From Acidobacteriota bacterium (GTDB lineage Bacteria; Acidobacteriota; Terriglobia; Bryobacterales; Bryobacteraceae): a stretch of DNA of 64,000 bases. Below the pieces are notes generated by a model. The model did not search any database, was not told where the DNA came from, and saw only the letters and a list, made by a program, of their open reading frames with translations. Positions 23,122-33,806 of this stretch are shown one piece after another. Within the stretch, counting starts at the first letter, position 1; each line of letters starts with the position of its first letter. Where the stretch lies: contig JACPNQ010000034.1 in assembly GCA_016185425.1 (NCBI GenBank), forward strand, positions 1 through 64,000. Reading direction: 5' to 3'. A program made the position numbers and the translations under genes.

Positions 23122-23751
23122 ATGAAAATCTTCGCAGTCCTCGCCCTCTTGGGCCTCACTCTCAGTGCGGCTAAAAAGGGCTTCACAGAACTGTTCGACG
23201 GCAAGACCACCAACGGATGGCAGCTCGTTCGCGGCCACGGCCCCGGATACATCGTCAAGGACGGTGTCCTCGTTTGCCCCAAGGAGGGAGGCGGAAATCT
23301 CTTCACAACAAAGGAGTACAAAGACTTTGTCTTCCGCTTTGACTTCAAGCTGTCGCCCGGCGGCAACAACGGCGTCGGCATTCGTTCCCCTCTCGAAGGC
23401 GATGCCGCCTACGCCGGCATGGAGATTCAGATCCTCGATCACGGCCACGCGATGTACAAAGGCAGAATCAAGCCCGCGCAGCACCACGGCAGCGTCTATG
23501 ACGTCGTCGCCGCGAAGGCCGATGCGCTGAAACCCGTCGGCAAGTGGAATAGAGAAGAGATCCGCGTCAAGGGAAACAAGATCAAGGTCACGTTGAACGG
23601 CAAGGTCATCACCGAGGCCGACCTCTCCACGGTCACAGACGAAGCCATCCTGAAGAAGCACCCCGGCGTAAAAAATGAGAAGGGGCACATCGGTTTCCTC
23701 GGCCACGGCTCGCTGGTCGAATTCCGCAATATCCGGATCAAGGAACTCTAA
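23122..23751 (+). CDS. DUF1080 (3-keto-disaccharide hydrolase-like) protein
   Basis: A 209-residue secreted protein (signal [17 protein letters not shown]) with a jelly-roll concanavalin-like fold typical of DUF1080. Motifs include [58 protein letters not shown] and [21 protein letters not shown]. Members have been tied to hydrolysis of 3-keto-glycosides, a route that works with Gfo/Idh/MocA dehydrogenases; such enzymes occur at 3036-5416. A GGAGA ribosome site precedes the ATG. Its last codons overlap by four bases the end of the convergent split monooxygenase gene. Confidence 0.88.
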
Positions 23752-24091
23752 TGCGTCGTGGAAGCGGAACCCGGGCGCGTTGTGCCGGTAAGCGACACCA
23801 CGTCCGGGTCCGCGCCGGCCGGAAAAACCACTTCCATAAACCCGATATTCATCTCCTCCCAACTCTGGTCACCCCATCGCACCGTCTGCGCTGGATCGGG
23901 GTTGAACCGGTTGTTAGGCGAGTTGTCGAAATGCGCCAGGCACTCGAGAACCGTGCCCTTCGGCAGCGTCTTCGGCGCCGCCAGGAAATACGTGGTCTGC
24001 CAGTTGAAGTCGTATCGCGGCACATCGATCAGGTTCTCTACATGGCCGTCGGGGAAGCGCGCCGTGATCCGGTAGGACTTGCCGCGCAGGT
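23748..24091 (-). pseudogene. 3' half of a cytochrome c/copper monooxygenase-like gene, cut off by transposon
   Basis: The fragment encodes the last about 112 residues: [54 protein letters not shown] and [16 protein letters not shown]. These are the C-terminal copper-type monooxygenase motifs of a family whose N-terminus is a cytochrome c-like domain. That N-terminal half lies at 32847-33806 in the same orientation. The break is exactly in HMHL|RGK. Joining minus-strand 33806-32847 to 24086-23748 gives 1,299 nt, i.e. 433 codons including stop, without a frameshift. A start at 24116 inside the element would be artificial. Confidence 0.9.
24087..24091. repeat. Target-site duplication, left copy (CAGGT)
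   Basis: CAGGT directly precedes the TGT of the left end and is repeated at 32847-32851 right after the ACA of the right end. A 5-bp duplication is typical of Tn7 and Tn5053/Tn402-type transposition. Confidence 0.92.
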
Positions 24092-24116
24092 TGTAACTTG
24101 AATCATTAATTGGCAC
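24092..24116 (+). repeat. Left terminal inverted repeat
   Basis: It starts TGTAACTTGAATCAT and ends TTGGCAC at 24116. Compared with the inverted right end (32846-32822), 21 of 25 positions match, the shared core being CTTGAATCAT-AA-TGGCAC. Confidence 0.9.
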
Positions 24117-24394
24117 CGAGTGCCGCTTTATGGTTCCAAAGCACCCCGATGACCGTCGCTTCGACCCGGCGCGTCGCTGCGTATGGCCGGAGGCTTTGGG
24201 AAAGTCGCTATACTTGCAAACCGACGGTCCGCGTCACGGTTGATGTTCTGCGGTTGGCCGACTTCCAAGCTCTGTGGGGTCAGAGGCAGGCAACTAGTGC
24301 CGGTGGACGGTGTACGCGCCACCTTCCGCAATCGCCGTTCTCCGGGCCCAACCTTCGCATCGTGGACGACAAAGCTCACTGCTGCGCAACGGCT
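24117..24394. other. Transposon left-end non-coding region
   Basis: No credible gene. Next to the terminal repeat, TGCCGCTTTATGGTTCC (24121-24137) matches the right-end repeats, but in the opposite orientation relative to the end. The rest shows no recognisable feature. Confidence 0.6.
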
Positions 24395-25570
24395 TCAACT
24401 GCCAATGAGAGTTGCTGTTAGTCTTTGCAACAGATTTCCTCCGCTGTCGGAGTTCGTCATTATCACGAATCCAGCCTTCTGCGCCAATGATACGGACGAG
24501 AAGCATTGGAAGCCGGGATTACTGCCGCCATGACCCACTAGCTCGTACTGCACCGTTTTGACAATTCGCCAACCGAGTCCCCAGAAAACGGAGTATCCGT
24601 TGAAGTCTCCAACCGCAATCTGCGGACGAACCATTTCATCGCGGCTTTGCGTCGACAGCCTATGAGCGCCCGCTGGGCGTGGCTGGATCACCTCAATGAG
24701 GAACTTCGCATAATCCGTGGGTGTGGTGATGAGCCCGCCGGCCGCCGCATAGCGCGACGCCTGAATCGAGCCTGGCTTCCGGAAAGGTAGAGGTTCACCT
24801 TGCCGGCCATGGGGGCGCGCCAGGTTCCTCGCAATCTGCTCATTCCAGAGATACGTACTGGAGTTCATGCCGAATGGTCGTAGAAGATGTTGCTGCATGT
24901 AGTCCGCAATGTCCGTCGCGCAGAAACGGGCGCCCTCCTCAAACGTTTGGCAGTGGTTACCGTCTTCGTGGCCAGTCAGGCGCGTCACCACGGATTGCAG
25001 ATAGCTATAACCTTCGCCGGAATAGCTGTGCTTTTGACCGGGCCTGAAGTTGATTCGCATTGGATTCCGTTGGGAACGCCAGTTCGGAAAGCCGGTCGCA
25101 TGTGTCAGAACGTGCCGCGCCGTGATCAATTCGAGCCGGCCAGGGTCGTCTTGAACATAACGCGCCGGCGTGTATTTCGTTAGCGGCGCATCGAGGTCGA
25201 GAACGCCTCGCTCTGCCAGTTTGAGAACCACGTATGCGAAAACAGCCTTGCTCATTGACGCTGCTTCGAACACAGTACGATCATCAACTGGCTGCTGTGT
25301 TTCTGCGTCTCGAACGCCAAAACCCCGACGCCAGTAGATCTTTCCATCCCGAATCAGAACTAGCGAAAGTCCAGGAACCGACGTTTGTTTCATCAGTTCC
25401 GGAATCCGTTTTTCCAGCGCTGCTATCCAGGCATTCCAGGAGGCGCGTGGAATTGAAAAGATACTTTCCAAATTCTCCGGCTCTGCTGCCGACCTCATTT
25501 GAGCGGTAGCCATAGCAGCTGTGAGCGAACCAACTGCTGACGCAAACGAGCGCCGGCTCATTCGACTCAT
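24395..25570 (-). CDS. Beta-lactamase-fold serine hydrolase (transposon cargo)
   Basis: A 391-residue class C/esterase-type protein. The nucleophile motif S-x-x-K is SMSK, preceded by TVFEAA. The second motif appears as YSGEGYSYLQ (Y-S-Y instead of Y-x-N), and the third as HGGSNPG, where KTG is replaced, as often in EstB/DD-peptidase relatives. The Tat-like signal is SRRSFASAVGSLTAAMATA. I chose ATG 25570 for this signal; a longer frame to 25732 carries unrelated Arg-rich sequence. Expected activity is hydrolysis of an ester, amide or D-peptide in the periplasm; resistance is not implied. It lies 278 bp from the left end. Confidence 0.88.
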   Translation of the reverse strand: MSRMSRRSFASAVGSLTAAMATAQMRSAAEPENLESIFSIPRASWNAWIAALEKRIPELMKQTSVPGLSLVLIRDGKIYWRRGFGVRDAETQQPVDDRTVFEAASMSKAVFAYVVLKLAERGVLDLDAPLTKYTPARYVQDDPGRLELITARHVLTHATGFPNWRSQRNPMRINFRPGQKHSYSGEGYSYLQSVVTRLTGHEDGNHCQTFEEGARFCATDIADYMQQHLLRPFGMNSSTYLWNEQIARNLARPHGRQGEPLPFRKPGSIQASRYAAAGGLITTPTDYAKFLIEVIQPRPAGAHRLSTQSRDEMVRPQIAVGDFNGYSVFWGLGWRIVKTVQYELVGHGGSNPGFQCFSSVSLAQKAGFVIMTNSDSGGNLLQRLTATLIGS

Positions 25571-25946
25571 CTTTACCAAACGCGAGCCAAATCCATCATT
25601 CATACAGGCCAATACGCAATTGCCGTCGATTTTGTTTCCGGATCGGCCCACAACGACGGATCTAAGATCCAGCAGAAGCAAGCGTACAAGGAACAGCGCC
25701 GCGGCGCGCGAAGGCCGCAGACGATGGAACATGATTCTCCTCGAGGCCGCGGGTGAGAGCTCCCAAACAGCGAAGGATGCACACTACATCTCCGTCCGCC
25801 GGCGAGCAATCGCATTCTCGCCAGCGGCGGCGACGAGGGAATTACCCGTGATGTGGCGACAGGGCAGAATGTGTCTCCCGTGTACGCTCGCCCGTCCGAT
25901 TTCCCCGTTTGAACTAACGTCGCGTGCGATGTAACAGCCGTTGGGA
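25571..25946. other. Intergenic region in transposon cargo
   Basis: 376 bp between the hydrolase start and the ADOP stop. Open frames on either strand here show Arg/Pro-rich sequence without motifs or signals. I see no promoter box that stands out. Confidence 0.5.
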
Positions 25947-28613
25947 TCAGCATCTGATTGCGATTATCGGGTCGGTTCGGGAGGCTTGTCGCGCTGGCAA
26001 GTAGTTGGCCAGCGATGCAACGAGAAACAGCAGCAGGGCCGCGCCCCCGAAAGCAATCGGGTCATTCGGCATTACGCCGTAGAGGAAACTCTCGACCAGG
26101 CGCGTGGCCACCAGCGCTCCGCCCAAGCCCAGCACAAGGCCGATCGCCACCATGGCCGAACCTTCGACCATGACGAGCCGTTGCACTTCATGACCTTGCG
26201 CGCCCAGCGCCAGGCGGATGCCGATCTCGCGCCGGCGGCCGTTGACGGCGTGCGCCATCACGCCGTACAAGCCTACGGCGGCCAACAGCAGCGCCAGCAA
26301 CCCGAAGATTGTCAGCAGCGTCGCTGCCAGCCGCGAGGTGTAGAGCGAGCTACTCTTTTGTTCCTCCAATGTCTTGATGTTGTAGAGCGGTAAGCTCCCA
26401 TCGAGCGCCTGCATCTCGCCCCGAACCGCCGCCAGCATCGTCGCCGGCTCGCCGGTAGTGCGAACGTGCAAGGTCATGTCCCCTCGGTAACGCTGCAAGA
26501 ACGGGGTGAAGACGGCGGGGCGCATTTCTTCGGTCAGCCTGCGATATTTGCTGTCCCTGACGACGCCGACGACGACTCTGGCTTGGTCATACGGTGGGCT
26601 GCCGACAATCACACGCTGGCCAATAGCACTCTGGCCGGGCCAGAAGCGGCGCGCCGTCGTCTGGTTGATAATTGCGACCGGCGGAGCGTTGGTCGTATCC
26701 GACTGGCCGAAGTCGCGTCCCTCGAGCAGGGGGATTTTCATCGTTCGGAAGTAATCAGGCCCGATTTGGTTGAAGTCTGAACTGATATCCTCGCCAAGCT
26801 TGGGTACATGGCCTTCCGCCCTCATCACCGCGCCGAACCCGTCGCCCAACGCTATTTGCGTCGCCAGGCTCGCAGCTTCCACTCCGCGCAAACGCTGGAC
26901 CCGTTCGAGCAGTTCTGAGTAGAACCGTCGACCGCGTTCTTCGTTGTATCCACTCATACCTACGTCGACCGACATAACGAGCACCTTGGCCGGGTCGAAG
27001 CCGGTGTCAATCGTCTGCAAGTTGCGCAGACTTCTGACGCACAAGCTAGCGCCGACTAGAACAATCACCGATAACGCTACCTGGCCGACCACCAGAAAAT
27101 TCCGCAAGTTCAGACGGCGGACTCGCTTCCCTAAAACAGTCGCTTCGTCCTTCAGGGCCGGAACCAAATCCGGCCGGGAGGCGCTCAGCGCCGGCGCCAA
27201 GCCGAACAGGATTCCGGTCAGCAGCGAAATTGCGAGCGCAAAGCCGAGCACTCGCAAGTCGAGTCGGTTGTCGAGCGTCAGCGATGAGAAGGCGTTGTTA
27301 TTGGGTGGTGTAAAGCTGACCATAAGACCGCTGATTGACACGGTCAACACCAGCCCGGCGGCGGCGCCGAGCGTCGAAAGCAGCACGCTTTCGGTCAGCA
27401 GTTGCCGGATCAGACGCATGCGACGGGCGCCGGTGGCGAGCCGGATGGCGATCTCTTTCTGGCGTGTGCCGGCGCGCGCCAGTAAAAGGTTCGCGACGTT
27501 GGCGCAGGCGATTAGCAGGATCAGACCAACGGTTGCCATCAGCATCTGTAAGGGGAACCGGATGTCACGAAGCAGGTTGGTGTGCCCACGGCTGCCATCT
27601 TCAATCAGGAACTTGGGTCCAACTCTCGGACTGCGATCCGCATTGGGATGCGATCTGGCGATCTGGCTTCCCAAAACGGCCATAGCGGCTGCGGCCTGCT
27701 CCCGGCTGACATCCGGCTTCAGGCGGCCGAGTAGGTAAAGCCAGCCAAAGAGGCTACTGCGAGGACCAAACAGCAGGTCCGGGTTCGAGGAAGGTAAAAC
27801 CTGACCCAGCATGATGATGGGAACGTAAACGTCCGGCCGGCTGCCTGCAATCGTGCCGCTGAATTCTGGCGGGGCGATTCCCACTACGGCAAATCTGTAG
27901 TCGTTTAAATTGATAGCCTTGCCGACAACGCCGGGATCGGCGCCAAAACGCCGTTCCCACAATCCGTAACTCAGGACGACCACTGGATGGGTGCCGGGGA
28001 TCTTATCCTCCTCCGGTAGGAAGCCACGCCCCAGGGCTGGCCGAACATGCAGCATCGTGAAGTAGTTGCCCGAAACGATCATCCCCTGAATCCGCTCGGC
28101 ATGGCCCCCTTCGCTAAGTGTAAGAGCCCGCTGGGAGTAGCACACGAGACCCTCAAAGACCTCATTTCGGTCACGATAATCGGCAAAGTCAGGATAGTTG
28201 GAGGTTGTGCTGACACCCTGGTCACGATTGGCGCTGATCACGACGAGCCGGTCCGGTTCGTCGACCGGTAGCTTTCTGATCAGGAGCTTATCGACGAGGC
28301 TGAAGATGGCGGTGTTGGCGCCTATGCCGAGGGCCAATGACAGCACCGCTACGGTGGTGAAGCCCGGAGCTTTTAGCAGCATTCGCGAGCCACACTGCAA
28401 GTCTTGCCAAAGGGATTCGAGTCCCGGCCAGCGCCAAGCGCTTCGAGCATCCTCGAAAACCAGGGAAGTCCTGCCAAACTGCCGCCGCGCAGCGGTCGGG
28501 TCGTCCAGATCGGCGGTTTTCATTTCAAGATGCGCTTCGATCTCTTCCTGCAGTTCGGCCTCGAGGACCTCTCGCCGTCGCCATGCATTAAGCTTCCGCC
28601 AAAGCTGAGTCAT
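25947..28613 (-). CDS. ADOP-type permease with N-terminal prefix domain (transposon cargo)
   Basis: An 888-residue MacB/FtsX-like permease. The N-terminal ~75 residues (KLNAWRRREVLEAELQEEIEAH) form the soluble prefix domain seen in full-length ADOP proteins. Two MacB-core plus FtsX halves follow: LLKAPGFTTVAVLSLALGIG at the first helix, LILLIACANVANLLLARAGTRQKEIAIR mid-protein, and GRRREIGIRLALGAQGHEVQRL then YLPARQASRTDPIIAIRC at the end. It is the second gene of an operon with PadR, 8 bp upstream. Compared with the chromosomal copy at 13418 it is longer and clearly diverged. The function is unknown; PadR-ADOP pairs are typical of Acidobacteriota and suggest repressor-controlled export. Confidence 0.92.
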   Translation of the reverse strand: MTQLWRKLNAWRRREVLEAELQEEIEAHLEMKTADLDDPTAARRQFGRTSLVFEDARSAWRWPGLESLWQDLQCGSRMLLKAPGFTTVAVLSLALGIGANTAIFSLVDKLLIRKLPVDEPDRLVVISANRDQGVSTTSNYPDFADYRDRNEVFEGLVCYSQRALTLSEGGHAERIQGMIVSGNYFTMLHVRPALGRGFLPEEDKIPGTHPVVVLSYGLWERRFGADPGVVGKAINLNDYRFAVVGIAPPEFSGTIAGSRPDVYVPIIMLGQVLPSSNPDLLFGPRSSLFGWLYLLGRLKPDVSREQAAAAMAVLGSQIARSHPNADRSPRVGPKFLIEDGSRGHTNLLRDIRFPLQMLMATVGLILLIACANVANLLLARAGTRQKEIAIRLATGARRMRLIRQLLTESVLLSTLGAAAGLVLTVSISGLMVSFTPPNNNAFSSLTLDNRLDLRVLGFALAISLLTGILFGLAPALSASRPDLVPALKDEATVLGKRVRRLNLRNFLVVGQVALSVIVLVGASLCVRSLRNLQTIDTGFDPAKVLVMSVDVGMSGYNEERGRRFYSELLERVQRLRGVEAASLATQIALGDGFGAVMRAEGHVPKLGEDISSDFNQIGPDYFRTMKIPLLEGRDFGQSDTTNAPPVAIINQTTARRFWPGQSAIGQRVIVGSPPYDQARVVVGVVRDSKYRRLTEEMRPAVFTPFLQRYRGDMTLHVRTTGEPATMLAAVRGEMQALDGSLPLYNIKTLEEQKSSSLYTSRLAATLLTIFGLLALLLAAVGLYGVMAHAVNGRRREIGIRLALGAQGHEVQRLVMVEGSAMVAIGLVLGLGGALVATRLVESFLYGVMPNDPIAFGGAALLLFLVASLANYLPARQASRTDPIIAIRC

Positions 28614-28621
28614 ACGACCTC

Positions 28622-28948
28622 CTATGCCGGCTCAATTACTCGTTCAACGGCCGTAGTGGCCCGTCTGAATTCACGCACCGCGCCGGCGAGCTGCTTTCGT
28701 CCCGCTGCTGTGAGCGTGTAATAGCGCGCTCGTCGGTTGTTCTCCGTTGTGCGCCACTCCGCCTTGACCCAGCCTTTGACGAGCATGCGCTGCAGCGCGG
28801 GATAGAGCGTGCCTTCCTCAACCTGAAAGACATCCTCGGTCGTTTGCTGAATAAACTGTGCTATCCCGTAGCCGTGCATCGGACCCAGCCGCGCCAGGGT
28901 CTGCAGAACGAGTATATAGACGGCGCCGGACGGAATTTCGACTTTCAT
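28622..28948 (-). CDS. PadR family regulator paired with ADOP permease (transposon cargo)
   Basis: A 108-residue winged-helix repressor beginning MKVEIPSGAVYILVLQTLA, with GPMHGYGIAQFIQQ, wing EDVFQVEEGTLYPALQRML and YYTLTAAGRKQLAG. It heads a two-gene operon with the ADOP gene. The upstream inverted repeat at 28960-28980 is a candidate site for autorepression. PadR proteins usually release DNA on binding small aromatic or drug-like ligands; the ligand here is unknown. Confidence 0.93.
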   Translation of the reverse strand: MKVEIPSGAVYILVLQTLARLGPMHGYGIAQFIQQTTEDVFQVEEGTLYPALQRMLVKGWVKAEWRTTENNRRARYYTLTAAGRKQLAGAVREFRRATTAVERVIEPA

Positions 28949-28959
28949 ACCGAAGAGCT

Positions 28960-28980
28960 TACCATAGTAGTGCTAGGGTA
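28960..28980. promoter_or_regulatory. Candidate PadR operator
   Basis: Inverted repeat TACCATAG-N5-CTAGGGTA with 7 of 8 arm positions matching. It lies 12-32 bases upstream of the padR start, overlapping where the promoter must be (minus-strand TATGGT is a possible -10). Confidence 0.5.
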
Positions 28981-29128
28981 GCAACTCTATGGTTACTGGA
29001 TCCGTCCAAATCGCCCAAATTGCCGAAACTGCGCTGTTGGCAGCCAATCAGCCGCCAGTGGATTGCCATATAGCGAGTAAACGCGATTTAGCACTCCATG
29101 ACGCCGTTGTCGGAAAAAAGCAAGTACT

Positions 29129-29734
29129 ATGCTGATTCATTCAATGCTGCCCCGTAGCGCGGCCAATGGCCCTGGCGAGCGAGCTGTCGTATGGTTCCAA
29201 GGATGTGATTTGTACTGTCGCGGCTGCTTTAACCCAGCGAGCCATCCCTTCGATCGTGATCGCGATAAACGCGTGGAAGAAGTCGCCGAGTGGGTTCTTG
29301 CCTGCCAGGGAATCGACGGCCTGACGCTTTCCGGGGGAGAGCCGTTCCAGCAAGCGGGCGACCTCCATCATCTTTGCGAGTACATCAAACTGAGACGACC
29401 AGACTTCTCCATTGGCGTCTTCAGCGGCCACACACTGCAAGAACTTGTTCGTGGCCAATGGCATTGGAAAGCACCCGGCAAGGATGCCTGGATCAAGGGC
29501 GATCCTGCTCTGTTTATGGCCATCAAGCAGTTCCTCGACTTCGGGGTATTCGGCCGGTTTCGGCAGACGATGGCATGCAATGATAAGCCGTTGTGCGGTT
29601 CTCGCAACCAGGACGTCGTCTTCCTTACTGATCGCTACTCACCTGGCGAGGTAATGCCTCAAGGATTTGAGGTGACAATCAGTGTAGACGGAAAAGGCGC
29701 GGTCATCACCGGCTTCCCGCCCCCAAGTCTTTAG
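29129..29734 (+). CDS. Small radical-SAM / 4Fe-4S activating enzyme-like protein (transposon cargo)
   Basis: A 201-residue protein of the NrdG/PflA-like 'single 4Fe-4S cluster' type. The cluster motif C-x3-C-x2-C is CDLYCRGC, preceded by GPGERAVVWFQG. LTLSGGEPFQQ is the SAM-binding GGEP motif, and PDFSIGVFSGHTLQEL follows as in activases. Proteins this short usually generate a glycyl or substrate radical for a partner enzyme, but no glycyl-radical enzyme or NrdD gene is adjacent. It is the only gene here transcribed rightward, and its last 29 bases overlap the end of the convergent tniQ/tnsD-like pseudogene. It appears intact, so it is probably cargo. Confidence 0.82.
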   Translation: MLIHSMLPRSAANGPGERAVVWFQGCDLYCRGCFNPASHPFDRDRDKRVEEVAEWVLACQGIDGLTLSGGEPFQQAGDLHHLCEYIKLRRPDFSIGVFSGHTLQELVRGQWHWKAPGKDAWIKGDPALFMAIKQFLDFGVFGRFRQTMACNDKPLCGSRNQDVVFLTDRYSPGEVMPQGFEVTISVDGKGAVITGFPPPSL

Positions 29735-31400
29735 GGCTAGGTCGTGCCGAATCAGGCGGAGCGCTGGACAATTCAGCCTTCGCCGCCCGAATGGCGGCTG
29801 CTCGCTCACTCCAACTCCGAGACAGATCCCTTCCGAGCAAGGCGTTAATCCTTTTGACGGATGGAAGCTTTCCTTCCGCATGCAACCGCGCAACGATCTG
29901 GCAAGCTTCGCTATAGAGTTCCTGGACCTTTCTCTGAGCCGTCTCTCGGGATTCACGGTCATGATGGGCGACGATGGCTGCGCACTCTTCCGGGCATAGC
30001 CGCAGGAGCTGCTGGCGGGAGAAGCCAACCCGCCGGCAAGCGTGTTCTAAAGATATGGCGGGAACGTCCAGACTGAATTGGTGCAGCTCGCTTCTCAGCT
30101 TCTCAATCTCGCGGACCCGATGTACGCGCCGGCGTTCCACGAGCTGGTCACATAATTCTGAAGAGTGCCCTCGGAGCACAACGGGCCTGCAATATCCGAG
30201 GCGGCTGCACATTTCGGTAAGGCTCGGTGGGGGATCTTCGATGAGGGCAGCCGCGAGTGCGCGTCCCATTGCTTCGATTCGTGATGCGTTGTAATTATCG
30301 ATCTTCGCCTGGATTGCTCGGCACAGGGTCGGAAACTTGCGCCTTAAAGGCTCATCGCCTACAAATCCCAGGTCGATGGAAACGTGATACGGAGAACGCG
30401 GATTGTCCTGCTGTAGGGACTCCTCAAGGGCACGCTGCATCTGCTGTGGTGAACGGAACCGTTTATCCCAGGCCTTTATTCCAGGAGGCTGTAGTGTTTT
30501 CTGGTAATTGGAGGCGATCCGTCGGCAAAGTTTCGCATCTACTCGATACGGCCGGTCCAGTTTAACGTAGTTAAGATGTCTGGCGACATCGGAAAGCCGC
30601 GGCGGCGGCTGCTCTGATGCCGCGCGCTGGAGTTCGGCCTTGATGTTGTCGCGGCTGCGAGTGGAAGGGAGACGAGCTTTCTGGATTCGCACTTGGGCTT
30701 CGTGCCAAGAGGTGGTCGCGCGTGCGAGATCCGGCTCCAAAAAGCTCACCAATGGAACTCTCAGATTATAGGAAAACCGAAGTAGCGTAGAAACGCGGGG
30801 CTGGCAGCCCCGATTGAGAAGGTCCCTTACTGTTTCGGCTTCGATCTTGCCGCGTCCGAAAATGCACTCTTATTACCCTCGGCGACATGATCGAGGAAGG
30901 CCCGGAAGTTTACTGTGAAGGTATTCCTGAGCGAAAGTGAGCCGAGATGTGGTGCGCAGGAAAGTAATGCGCCAATTTCATTCGCGGACCAAATCTCGAA
31001 GTCGCTGCGATGAAGGTGATCGACCGCGGAATTGCAGCCACCAAGCCATGACTGGCATTGGGAGCAGTACCCCGGTCGGGAAAAGGACGTAATCGGCTTG
31101 GACCTCCGGGAGCAATTCGGACAAACTTCTTGCAGCGCCCGTCTTGTGCTGCGGACAAACGGTGGCCGCTCGCAAGGCCCAAATCAACCGCTCGTAAACA
31201 TGCTCGCCATTGGCTCGATCATTTTCAAAGCACTCGCCGCACCAAGCACGACGACGCCGGAAGACGGCGAGCGGCCAGAAGAGATCTGCAAAGGACAACA
31301 GCGTGAGGAAGCGCAGGTCCGTTTGCATTGTCCCAGCCTGAAGCGCATCGACCCATTTTCTAGCGGGCTCGCCGAGACCGTTCATGGCATAAAAGCGTCC
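29706..31400 (-). pseudogene. Decayed tniQ/tnsD-like target-selection gene
   Basis: TniQ-type pieces occur in order but in several frames. NGLGEPARKWVDAL, TDLRFLTLL and the first zinc motif WCGECFEND...VCPQH run to about 31146. Then RCKKFVRIAPGG lies in a second frame, and YCSQCQSWLG with EIWSANEIGALLSCAPHLG and EGNKSAFSDAARSK in a third (31073 to a TAA at 30827). From about 30833 an unbroken frame runs to 29706 with four helix-turn-helix-like repeats (ARHLNYVKL, DLGFVGDEPLRRKFPTLCRAI, CSRLGYCRPVVL, CRRVGFSRQQLLRLCPEECAAI) as at TnsD C-termini. Frameshifts lie near 31140, 31080 and 30835. The N-terminal start is lost in a fusion to tnsA-B. TniQ proteins choose the insertion site. Confidence 0.85.
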
Positions 31401-32184
31401 GTGAAAAATATTCGGCTCGGATGTGGGAAAGACCCCTACGCGCTTCGGTTCAGCAAGTGGCGCAGCATGCCAATCGACGTACAGAACATCGGGTGCAATC
31501 ATGGCAAAGATCTCGTCGAGAGTGACCGTATCTTTGGTGACTTGCAAAAGATCTTCCAGCGACAATTCCGGCGTTGCCGCAACGCACTCAAGCGCAACTT
31601 CGCGGCTGGCAGGGCCACTTCTCGCGAGTCGGATCGAAGATAATCCTCCAAGAACTGGATATTTCGTTGAAACACGAAGTCGATCTCCGCCGATGATCGC
31701 ACGCGGTAATAGCACCCCAGACGCTCCGCATAGGCATTACCTGGAGGACATTGCCAGCGCCCGCCATCGCCGGCGCAGTAGCGATTGGAATTCCGCGCTG
31801 CAAGCCGCTGCAGGTCTGCCTCCGTTTTCCACTCCTCCCATCCGGCTTCTTTTTCGCGAATGACGAAGAAATCTGGAGTGTGGAGGACACCCATCCGCTT
31901 TCCGGCCGGACTCTCATAATCGAGTTTGATTGTGGACGGCTGGTCGAAATATTCGAGGACGCCAGCATCGTGTTCCATCTCGTAAATGCCAGCCAGTTCG
32001 ACCCGATGACTCTCGAACTGGATGGTCCCATCTTCCTGCTCGGATAGCGGCCGGGCACGTTCGACTTTCCCCCTCCGACACGGCGCGCCGGGCCCGCGGA
32101 CCGGATATGCCTGATCGTGGAGCGCGCCTGTTCCGGAAGATTGAGCGGTTGAAACCAGGCCAGTAAGCAATCGGCCGTCAGCAT
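31401..32184 (-). pseudogene. Truncated, frameshifted tnsA-tnsB fusion-type transposase gene
   Basis: The gene starts MLTADCLLAWFQPLNLPEQA and reads to GRYPSRKMG. A frameshift at about 32026 moves it to TIQFESHRVELAGIYEMEHD, HTPDFFVI and GWEEWKTEADL, which carry the Glu, Asp and E-x-K catalytic residues of the TnsA endonuclease. RYR-type NSNRY, WQCPPGNAYAERLG and VFQRNIQFLEDYL follow. A second frameshift at about 31630 leads into a winged-helix linker (VALECVAATPELSLEDLL, DEIFAMIAPDVLYVDWHAA). After VGVFPTSE at about 31416 the sequence jumps into tniQ in frame. The DDE transposase domain and all of tnsC are therefore deleted. TnsA cuts the 5' strands in Tn7-type cut-and-paste. Confidence 0.87.
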
Positions 32185-32214
32185 CGGAGTTACTCCTCCC
32201 TGGTTGCGATCATT

Positions 32215-32550
32215 TCATTGCCGCGATTGGGCACTCCTCTGGGCCTTCTGAGCGCGCACGTACCGAAGCCCCGCCTCCTTCATCAGATCTTGAAGCGCCC
32301 GGCCGTTCTCGGCCGCCTTCTTAATGTCCGGCGCCAGTTGATCAGGCACGTAAACCGAGAATCGCCGCTTGCCGCGGTAACCGGAAAGAGCATAGCTGCT
32401 GTGCCCGACGCCAGACGCGCAGGCTGAGCAGTTTTCTCGAATGCACGGGCTTTTCCTTAGCGAAATCGATCCCCCGGCGATCGGCCACAACTTCTGGACA
32501 GCGTTCAAGAACCAGCGTCTGACCTCTTCTGGTGTTTCGCTCTTTGGCAT
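32215..32550 (-). CDS. DUF6788 family small protein in transposon
   Basis: A 111-residue protein matching the DUF6788 pattern: GGSISLRKSPCIRENCSACASGVGHSSY corresponds to the family's GSlsxRxxxCGxxxCrCaxGxxHgPY region, followed by GYRGKRRFSVYVPDQL. Its Cys-rich centre could bind a metal, and a DNA-associated role is possible, but no function is established. It is the gene nearest the right end and lies 30 bp upstream of tnsA-B on the same strand, so the two were probably co-transcribed. Its ATG is the last base of a 30-bp palindrome, which may make it or a partner self-regulated. Confidence 0.7.
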   Translation of the reverse strand: MPKSETPEEVRRWFLNAVQKLWPIAGGSISLRKSPCIRENCSACASGVGHSSYALSGYRGKRRFSVYVPDQLAPDIKKAAENGRALQDLMKEAGLRYVRAQKAQRSAQSRQ

Positions 32551-32579
32551 TGTACAGGTGTGATATTACACCTGTACAA
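32550..32579. promoter_or_regulatory. 30-bp palindromic operator at the transposase operon start
   Basis: TTGTACAGGTGT and ACACCTGTACAA are perfect 12-bp inverted arms around GATATT. The palindrome's left edge coincides with the ATG of the DUF6788 gene on the minus strand, and minus-strand TAATAT inside it could be the -10. A bound protein would block the promoter of the transposition operon. Confidence 0.7.
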
Positions 32580-32692
32580 GCCATTCTTCAATACTTTTGT
32601 TTCGGCGACGTGGAGAGATGGATCACGCAATCGATTGACGGCTACGGTGTACGTGAAGTATGCGAGGCCCGGCGCTTTCCGCTTGAACTTTC

Positions 32693-32818
32693 TGACACCT
32701 TATGGTTCCTCTTTGGACTTGGTGCCACGTTATCCTTCCGCCCGCGTGCTGGTCGTCCTGGTGCCGACCGGTGGTTTGTAGGGCTTTTGGCGACCATCGC
32801 TGCCGCTTTATGCTTCGC
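32693..32818 (-). repeat. Internal right-end repeats (putative TnsB-binding sites)
   Basis: Three copies share the plus-strand pattern TG-CAC/CGC-TTAT-G-TTC with the terminal repeat. They are TGACACCTTATGGTTCCTC (32693-32711), TGCCACGTTATCCTTCC (32723-32739) and TGCCGCTTTATGCTTCGC (32801-32818). All have the same orientation as the terminal copy, as in the multi-site right end of Tn7. Confidence 0.75.
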
Positions 32819-32821
32819 GTA

Positions 32822-32846
32822 GTGCCACTTTATGATTCAAGGCACA
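32822..32846 (-). repeat. Right terminal inverted repeat
   Basis: Read from the outside on the minus strand it begins TGTGCCTTGAATCAT and continues to GTGGCAC at 32822. It matches the left end at 21 of 25 positions. Confidence 0.9.
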
Positions 32847-32851
32847 CAGGT
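32847..32851. repeat. Target-site duplication, right copy (CAGGT)
   Basis: It directly follows the terminal ACA and is identical to 24087-24091. In the gene these bases are part of the His-Leu codons of HMHL. Confidence 0.92.
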
Positions 32852-33806
32852 GCATGTGCGGCTGCATGGAAAGCAGCGTCAGCTCCCGTTGGAGAATGGC
32901 TGCTGTGGAGGAAGGGACGTTCCCATCGCCCGGCGGAATAGCGAACGCGCTATCGGCCGGGGTGATGGTCAACACGCGTTCGCGCGGCGCATCCTTCGCG
33001 AAGTAAATACCCAGCTCCGACTCATCCACCGCGGCCTTTCCGTTCGCCGTATAGTGCATCTCGAAGACGATATCGGCGGACTTGGGCAGCAGCTTTGCGC
33101 GGCCGTCTCCCCAGCCCTGCGGTCGATAACCCGGTTCATAACCCAGAAGCAGTTCGCGGCGGTCAGCCTCCCGTTCATCGGGACGCCGGGACGCGCGCGA
33201 GGCCTTGGAAGCGACGAAGAACTGCCCCGCTGGCGCGTCGCTCACATAGCTCGAACCCTTGGGCCGAATGAACGCGTTGATGTGGTGAACGAGAGAGCGC
33301 TTGTCGATCCTCCACTCAGCGGCGGCAATCCACTTCGCTTCGGGTAGATCCGTTGGCGTTACTAGAAAGGTGTACTGAATGGTTCCCGCATTCGGGATCG
33401 CAAATCGCGGAACTTTGATAATGAGATCCGGCTGGCCCAATCCCCAGCCGGCCGGTTTGACTTCGGCTACACTCGCCGCCGCGGCCTGCCCTTCAACCGC
33501 GCCTCCGTCCACCCAATCGAGCAGCGTCTTCCGCTCCGCCGCCGTCAGCGAACGATCGTTGTGAAAAGCGACACTCTTCGCGGGATCCGCATGCCAGGGC
33601 GGCATTGTGCCTTTGGCCACAGCCTGCCGCAGCGCCTTCGCCCAAGGCCGCACTTCCGCAAACGAAGTCAGCGCCATCGGCCCTATCTCGCCGGGCCTAT
33701 GACAGCTCACGCACCGCCGTGCCAGGATCGGGCGCACATCGCGTTGATATTCCGGCGCCGCCCACAGCGCGGTCACACCAATAAAGCCCAGCAAGACTCT
33801 CCGCAT
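32847..33806 (-). pseudogene. 5' half of a cytochrome c/copper monooxygenase-like gene, cut by transposon
   Basis: It encodes about 320 residues. There is a signal peptide (MRRVLLGFIGVTALWAAPEYQ) and a cytochrome c-like domain with heme motif CVSCH (RRCVSCHRPGEIGPM) and distal Met in KGTMPPWHADP. The first half of a copper type II monooxygenase-like domain follows (SLVHHINAFIRP, IVFEMHYTANGK), ending in the copper-ligand motif QPHMHL. Beyond this the frame enters the transposon and stops after about 14 foreign codons. The remaining C-terminus is at 23748-24091. It follows the enolase-superfamily gene by 6 bp. The original protein probably oxidised a substrate in the periplasm; that is family inference. 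Confidence 0.9.

Follow-up and report, generated by a model that had tools for sequence, protein, structure and literature searches.

The best solved relatives of the element described here belong to the system of PDB entries 8v32 and 9bw1 (presumably PmcCAST), with its fused TnsAB and long TnsD. Compared with that system, the element, which lies within a contiguous 64,000-nt stretch of DNA analysed as a whole (the window), shows no Cas gene, has lost the TnsB half and TnsC by deletion and sits inside a coding gene. Tn7-like elements with a tnsAB fusion are already known, and the CAST I-B2 and I-D elements, in the part of the source available (PMC10293859), resemble the intact relatives found in this study in encoding TnsAB, TnsC and a long TniQ/TnsD. 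They differ in that 10 of the 17 relatives read closely here (16 fetched loci and a cassette on contig C33 of the same genome) have a DUF6788-like gene ahead of tnsAB, and in that the window copy is without transposase. Bacterial MITEs and other miniature elements are likewise described as ends and a target duplication without a transposase gene (PMC10969869, as far as available), and TIMEs are introduced as another kind of miniature bacterial element (PMC4133298, likewise in part). Unlike MITEs and TIMEs, the window element derives from a Tn7-like element and carries cargo.

Among the titles and opening lines of abstracts searched, no paper on non-autonomous or miniature Tn7-like derivatives was found, which is not proof of absence. 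Acidobacteria have been named as rare hosts (four species) of Tn7-like transposons in a large survey which, in the portion of its text available, demanded a TnsB hit (PMC8649781), and elements such as the one in the window would therefore go uncounted. The window element carries cargo and probably arose by deletion from a CRISPR-free Tn7-like transposon within the tnsAB-fusion lineage, which left it non-autonomous; on this reading it landed without transposase and was moved in trans. If such elements are moved in trans, the reach of Tn7-like cargo is larger than tnsB counts suggest, and the end sites, which are linked here with a named cassette and exact duplications, provide a search key for them.

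Borders and gene content of the element

The element proper occupies 24092..32846 of the window (8,755 bp), starting with TGTAAC and finishing with GGCACA, and is flanked by a perfect 5-bp duplication, CAGGT (24087..24091 and 32847..32851, forward strand). A preliminary description of this DNA had given exact borders with the same duplication; these were confirmed, save that the element start was moved from 24087 to 24092, since 24087–24091 represents one copy of the duplication. The inverted TGT...ACA ends it had reported were also recovered, and their outermost 25 bp, TGTAACTTGAATCATTAATTGGCAC and TGTGCCTTGAATCATAAAGTGGCAC (other strand), are identical at 21 of 25 positions. Using the pattern TTGAAYCATAAAGYGGCA with up to three mismatches, four end-type sites were detected in the window, where shuffled sequence would give 0.09, and all four lie at the borders. 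At the end far from tnsA, an outer site (24098..24115, +; a probable TnsB site) is faced by an inner one (24121..24138, −), while the tnsA-side end carries a terminal site (32823..32840, −) and a second site 22 bp in (32801..32818, −). A third site of this repeat family lies 78 bp further in (32722..32738, −; more than four mismatches from the pattern), along with a weak fourth one (32693..32710, −; four mismatches). The element has the ends of a Tn7-like transposon, with TGT...ACA termini and several repeated sites per end. Across the whole assembly (6.64 Mb, 47 contigs, 93.7% complete) the pattern matched nine times, at the four border sites (0, 1, 2 and 3 mismatches) and at five isolated positions (three mismatches each), with three matches for the reversed control pattern. 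As only the border sites are non-isolated, the element is single-copy in the assembly.

ORF 31499-32170 matched TnsA (Pfam, E 6.3e-8) and the TnsAB chain of 9bw1 (E 1.5e-49), and ORF 30978-31715 matched TniQ (E 2.8e-8). Within the latter, the first part matched 9bw1 TnsAB (E 0.0017) and the adjoining part 8v32 TnsD (E 5.9e-21), which marks the scar of an internal deletion; by alignment to the relative L098 the scar lies at 31406..31416. It is bordered by a tnsAB remnant consisting of the TnsA part only (31416..32193, −) and a tniQ/tnsD remnant with its start missing (29769..31406, −), each with two frameshifts. A single deletion accounts for the absence of the TnsB half, of TnsC and of the TniQ/TnsD start, and it brought the remaining TnsA and TniQ/TnsD parts together in one reading frame; coordinate arithmetic on L098 puts the missing stretch at about 3.3 kb. 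In frameshift-aware alignments against L098, the tnsAB remnant aligned over residues 13-273, with 168 identities in 258 aligned codons, and the tniQ/tnsD remnant over residues 88-638, with 216 in 539. No stop codon was present in the 797 aligned codons, which suggests that the tns decay is itself young. The same alignment found no frameshift in TnsA of nine out of ten relatives (L096 has one) or in TniQ of six out of eight (two each in L104 and L105, with a stop besides in L105); both sets include the reference L098.

In intact relatives TnsA is continuous with TnsB, and the window remnant extends past TnsA to residue 273 of the L098 TnsAB. Past residue 258 of the C33 TnsAB, nothing in the element matched TnsB, and TnsC gave no match at E 1e-3, its sole match being of 29 residues (E 0.03) in the cargo region. 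The Tn7-like origin and the decayed tnsA and tniQ genes proposed in the preliminary description are supported by the TnsA and TniQ matches, the ends and the 5-bp duplication, with the correction that the decayed tnsA belongs to a tnsAB fusion, of which it is the front part, and that one deletion joined it to tniQ/tnsD. An inherited TnsA-TniQ architecture was considered and rejected, as the TnsA-only locus L106 was read by eye as a truncated TnsAB; the window chimera is accordingly taken as a private scar. It is highly improbable that the in-frame TnsA-TniQ/TnsD chimera or the DUF6788 protein still acts, for instance in regulating helper elements. The junction keeps the frame and DUF6788 and its palindrome (see below) are intact, but each side of the junction carries frameshifts. 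Among eight element ORFs scanned no Cas family was detected, the element contains no close direct repeats of at least 20 nt, and Rfam gave no match.

It should also be noted that L106:9558-10940 (genome G019) holds a second TnsAB remnant which ends after the TnsA part with no adjoining TnsB match. Relatives' TniQ/TnsD proteins are 534-670 residues long. By eye, the C-terminal TniQ/TnsD part in the window (29706-30752) seemingly contains repeats of about 55 residues resembling AraC-type helix-turn-helix units; a predicted structure of this ORF folded alone was set aside (mean pLDDT 44).

Four cargo genes are open: a serine hydrolase of the beta-lactamase (PF00144) family (24395..25732, −; 445 aa), which falls far under the cut-off of each NCBIfam model among the matches listed (25 of 44), an ADOP-family permease (25947..28613, −; 888 aa), a PadR regulator (padR_acidobact; 28622..28948, −) and an NrdG-like radical SAM protein (29129..29734, +; 201 aa).

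The DUF6788-like gene and tnsAB-fusion relatives

At the head of the tns operon is a DUF6788-like gene with an operator-like palindrome. In the window the gene is open (32215..32550, −; 111 aa; Pfam E 0.0013, under the cut-off) and its product is 54-78% identical to those of nine relatives. A 30-bp palindrome with 14 of 15 pairs (32550..32579), a probable operator, touches its start codon, and the palindrome score at this position was reached by none of 239 control start codons. Seven of 11 elements, the window included, have a palindrome in the same place within the top 5% of controls, the exceptions being L104, L095, C33 and L093. DUF6788 is read here as a regulator of transposase operons, for which CvkR of the type V-K elements provides a precedent in role, not in sequence (PMC9938897, in the part available); such a link would assign a function to the DUF6788 family, on which no paper was found in the literature searched. 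DUF6788 was found in 64 of 200 genomes of the class. When ORFs adjoining it were picked by eye from 30 loci, four of ten matched a Pfam transposase family by name, a share biased upward because of that manner of picking. As a separate observation, DUF6788 also occurs beside several other transposase types in the class.

TnsAB matches were obtained in 37 of 399 genomes of the class and in none of the nine same-genus genomes listed. Of the 17 loci mentioned above, four (L083, L092, L101 and L106) showed no DUF6788-like gene ahead of TnsAB, and in three (L097, L099 and L105) the contig stops within TnsAB. The same genome as the window carries a complete element of 9,186 bp (C33:179775-188960; loci L013-L015) with the duplication CGCAT, in which the DUF6788-like gene, an 836-aa TnsAB fusion (E 1.3e-286 against 9bw1), TnsC and a 534-aa TniQ are all open, with PadR and an ADOP permease as cargo. 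It resembles the window element in its end geometry and in its PadR plus permease cargo, and differs from it in its end-site sequence and in its intact Tns genes, the TnsA pieces being 43-57% identical. As the end sites differ, C33 was rejected as a likely helper for the window element.

No common target was visible among the loci. When the flanks of C33 are joined, the start of a short frame that was already truncated is restored; open frames reach the border in L097, L098 and L104, and L100 lies just ahead of one (labels assigned by eye). CAST I-D is described as homing to a tRNA gene (PMC10293859, in the part available), a mode rejected here since none of the 19 loci scanned contained a tRNA, nor was one present near the window insertion.

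The interrupted host gene

The N-terminal part of the interrupted gene lies at 32847..33806 (−) and the C-terminal part with the stop at 23748..24086 (−). With 24087-32846 removed, a single CAGGT remains and the frame is open over 1,299 nt, as the preliminary description had held for its split gene, corresponding to 432 codons plus the stop. The "copper monooxygenase-like" label given to that gene is weakly backed, by a Cu2_monoox_C match in an intact orthologue at E 0.005, under the cut-off. That the locus is an assembly chimera or the product of an unrelated rearrangement has next to no probability: the only point for it is a genome assembled in 47 contigs, and against it stand the perfect duplication, the TGT/ACA termini, the site arrays at the borders and the exact restoration of the frame.

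A search with the joined host protein gave some match in 88 of 121 genomes, as the family has many paralogues. The nearest uninterrupted copies (81-83% identity) belong to four genomes of the same genus, G004, G002, G010 and G003, and the codons at the insertion point also run uninterrupted in the more distant G014. A DUF1080 gene adjoins the uninterrupted gene in all four, with a sulfatase beyond, partial where the contig stops. On the opposite flank, G003 alone keeps the enolase-family gene together with the three window genes that follow it, and no match to the enolase-family gene was found in the searched DNA of the other three. Both checks proposed in the preliminary description, for an intact gene in relatives and for the same ends elsewhere, thus gave positive results: the gene stands uninterrupted in these genomes and such ends border other elements (see below), and neither of the contrary outcomes it had named was observed.

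To estimate the age of the landing, the joined host gene was compared with the four intact orthologues. Its dN/dS against these was 0.09-0.12, with 0.07-0.15 among the orthologues themselves. Private changes of the host gene came to 45.5 synonymous and 7.5 nonsynonymous, against 62.2 and 11.8 in the four orthologues taken together. With 5% of the host-gene branch evolving neutrally, 15 nonsynonymous changes would be expected and eight or fewer would arise with P 0.04; a neutral phase of at least 5% of the branch is thus disfavoured. There is no frameshift in the 1.3 kb of the host gene and the interrupted gene shows no decay. Since its private changes are no worse than those of the intact orthologues, the landing is judged to be recent.

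These data bear on another explanation, namely that the Tn7-like element was still complete at its recent landing and that TnsB, TnsC and part of TniQ/TnsD were lost in place afterwards, leaving a young fossil that never moved in its deleted form. This reading is a real contender, although it is not thought likely. The remnants have frameshifts yet no stop codons, a sign of young decay, and the bound on the time since landing allows a few indels; against it, the tns remnants hold five lesions (the deletion and four frameshifts) where the host gene and the four open cargo genes hold none, and transposase-less elements with such ends occur elsewhere. The chance of four frameshifts in the 2.4 kb of remnant and none in the 1.3 kb of host gene is about 0.18, and dating by lesion counts alone was rejected as not significant.

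Elements with similar ends and proposed movement in trans

A scan of genome contigs for two close sites gave 11 paired-site loci. By tblastn, Tns genes were present only in L083, from a Hyellaceae cyanobacterium MAG, where an element of 4,166 bp encodes TnsAB and TnsC, lacks TniQ and is flanked by duplicated GCTTG; among the 11 it alone is a complete TnsAB-TnsC element that combines such sites with a perfect duplication. L082, from an Acidobacteriaceae MAG, holds a gene-free element of 373 bp with miniature-element ends. The remaining nine are not counted as such elements, L086 looking like a plain tandem repeat. A related pattern, run against 399 genomes of the class, matched five places in four genomes, where the control matched none. 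These were the window, L142 (G413), L143 (G165) and two places within one element of L144 (G437), the last being the same record as L082. TnsAB was absent from the place in all four loci. L142 is a 434-bp element with the duplication ATTCA/ATTCA, the same site type as the window and no transposase.

The tnsA-side spacing of the window (22 between sites 1 and 2, 78 between sites 2 and 3) recurs as 22/78 in L083, 23/77 in L082, 23/78 in L096, 22/77 in C33 and 23/76 in L142. At the far-side end, a facing arrangement of the two sites is shared by the window, C33, L082, L100 and L104, and a same-direction arrangement by L083, L098 and L142. Both borders were placed for seven elements, six of which have perfect 5-bp duplications, with four of five positions in L144 Y; shifted-flank controls matched in 23 of 20,412 trials. 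The borders of the window element, L083, L142 and L144 Y were taken from end sequences, whereas the duplication helped to locate one border each of L100 (right) and C33 (left), and X' in L144 was placed by eye.

The ends of the window element are intact and its own transposase is missing, the two features by which a non-autonomous element is recognised. With its ends and cargo intact, and with transposase-less elements bearing perfect duplications elsewhere, "non-autonomous" fits better than "dead", the term used in the preliminary description, which may be the wrong word for the element as DNA. Given the undecayed host gene and the other transposase-less elements with such ends, movement in trans is regarded as the best reading of the sequence and a rather likely one, within which the order of deletion and landing is unproven. 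It is suspected that the deletion, and with it the loss of the transposase, preceded the landing. TnsAB and TnsC from another element would then have recognised the site arrays at both ends, cut the element out and pasted it into the host gene. No helper with matching end sites was found as a complete element in the same genome, in the nine same-genus genomes, in plasmids or in viral contigs; megablast of the element DNA against plasmids gave no match and no TnsAB relatives were confirmed in viral contigs. More tentatively, and with somewhat more doubt than belief, these loci could be members of an acidobacterial guild of transposase-less Tn7-like elements, ranging from miniatures of about 370 bp to multi-kilobase cargo carriers, which would be moved in trans by CRISPR-free, DUF6788-controlled tnsAB-fusion elements and remain unseen by surveys requiring tnsB.

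In L143, whose contig is cut, an end is adjoined by a TnsC piece of 26 residues and then a MerR-type regulator; the locus looks like another cargo-carrying deletion derivative. In L144:11200-13600, three end-bearing elements lie in a row (one end of X, then Y, then X'), with CCCAA and CCCATG-like spacers, which may represent repeated insertion at one spot. X' is 1,926 bp long with the duplication CCATG/CCATG and end sites like the C33 type, and no Tns gene was detected in it by tblastn. It should also be noted that L083:2586-6751 encodes TnsAB and TnsC only, without the TniQ target selector, on a contig labelled cyanobacterial, and that in L143:695-2913 a thioredoxin-like neighbour lies beside the MerR-type regulator.
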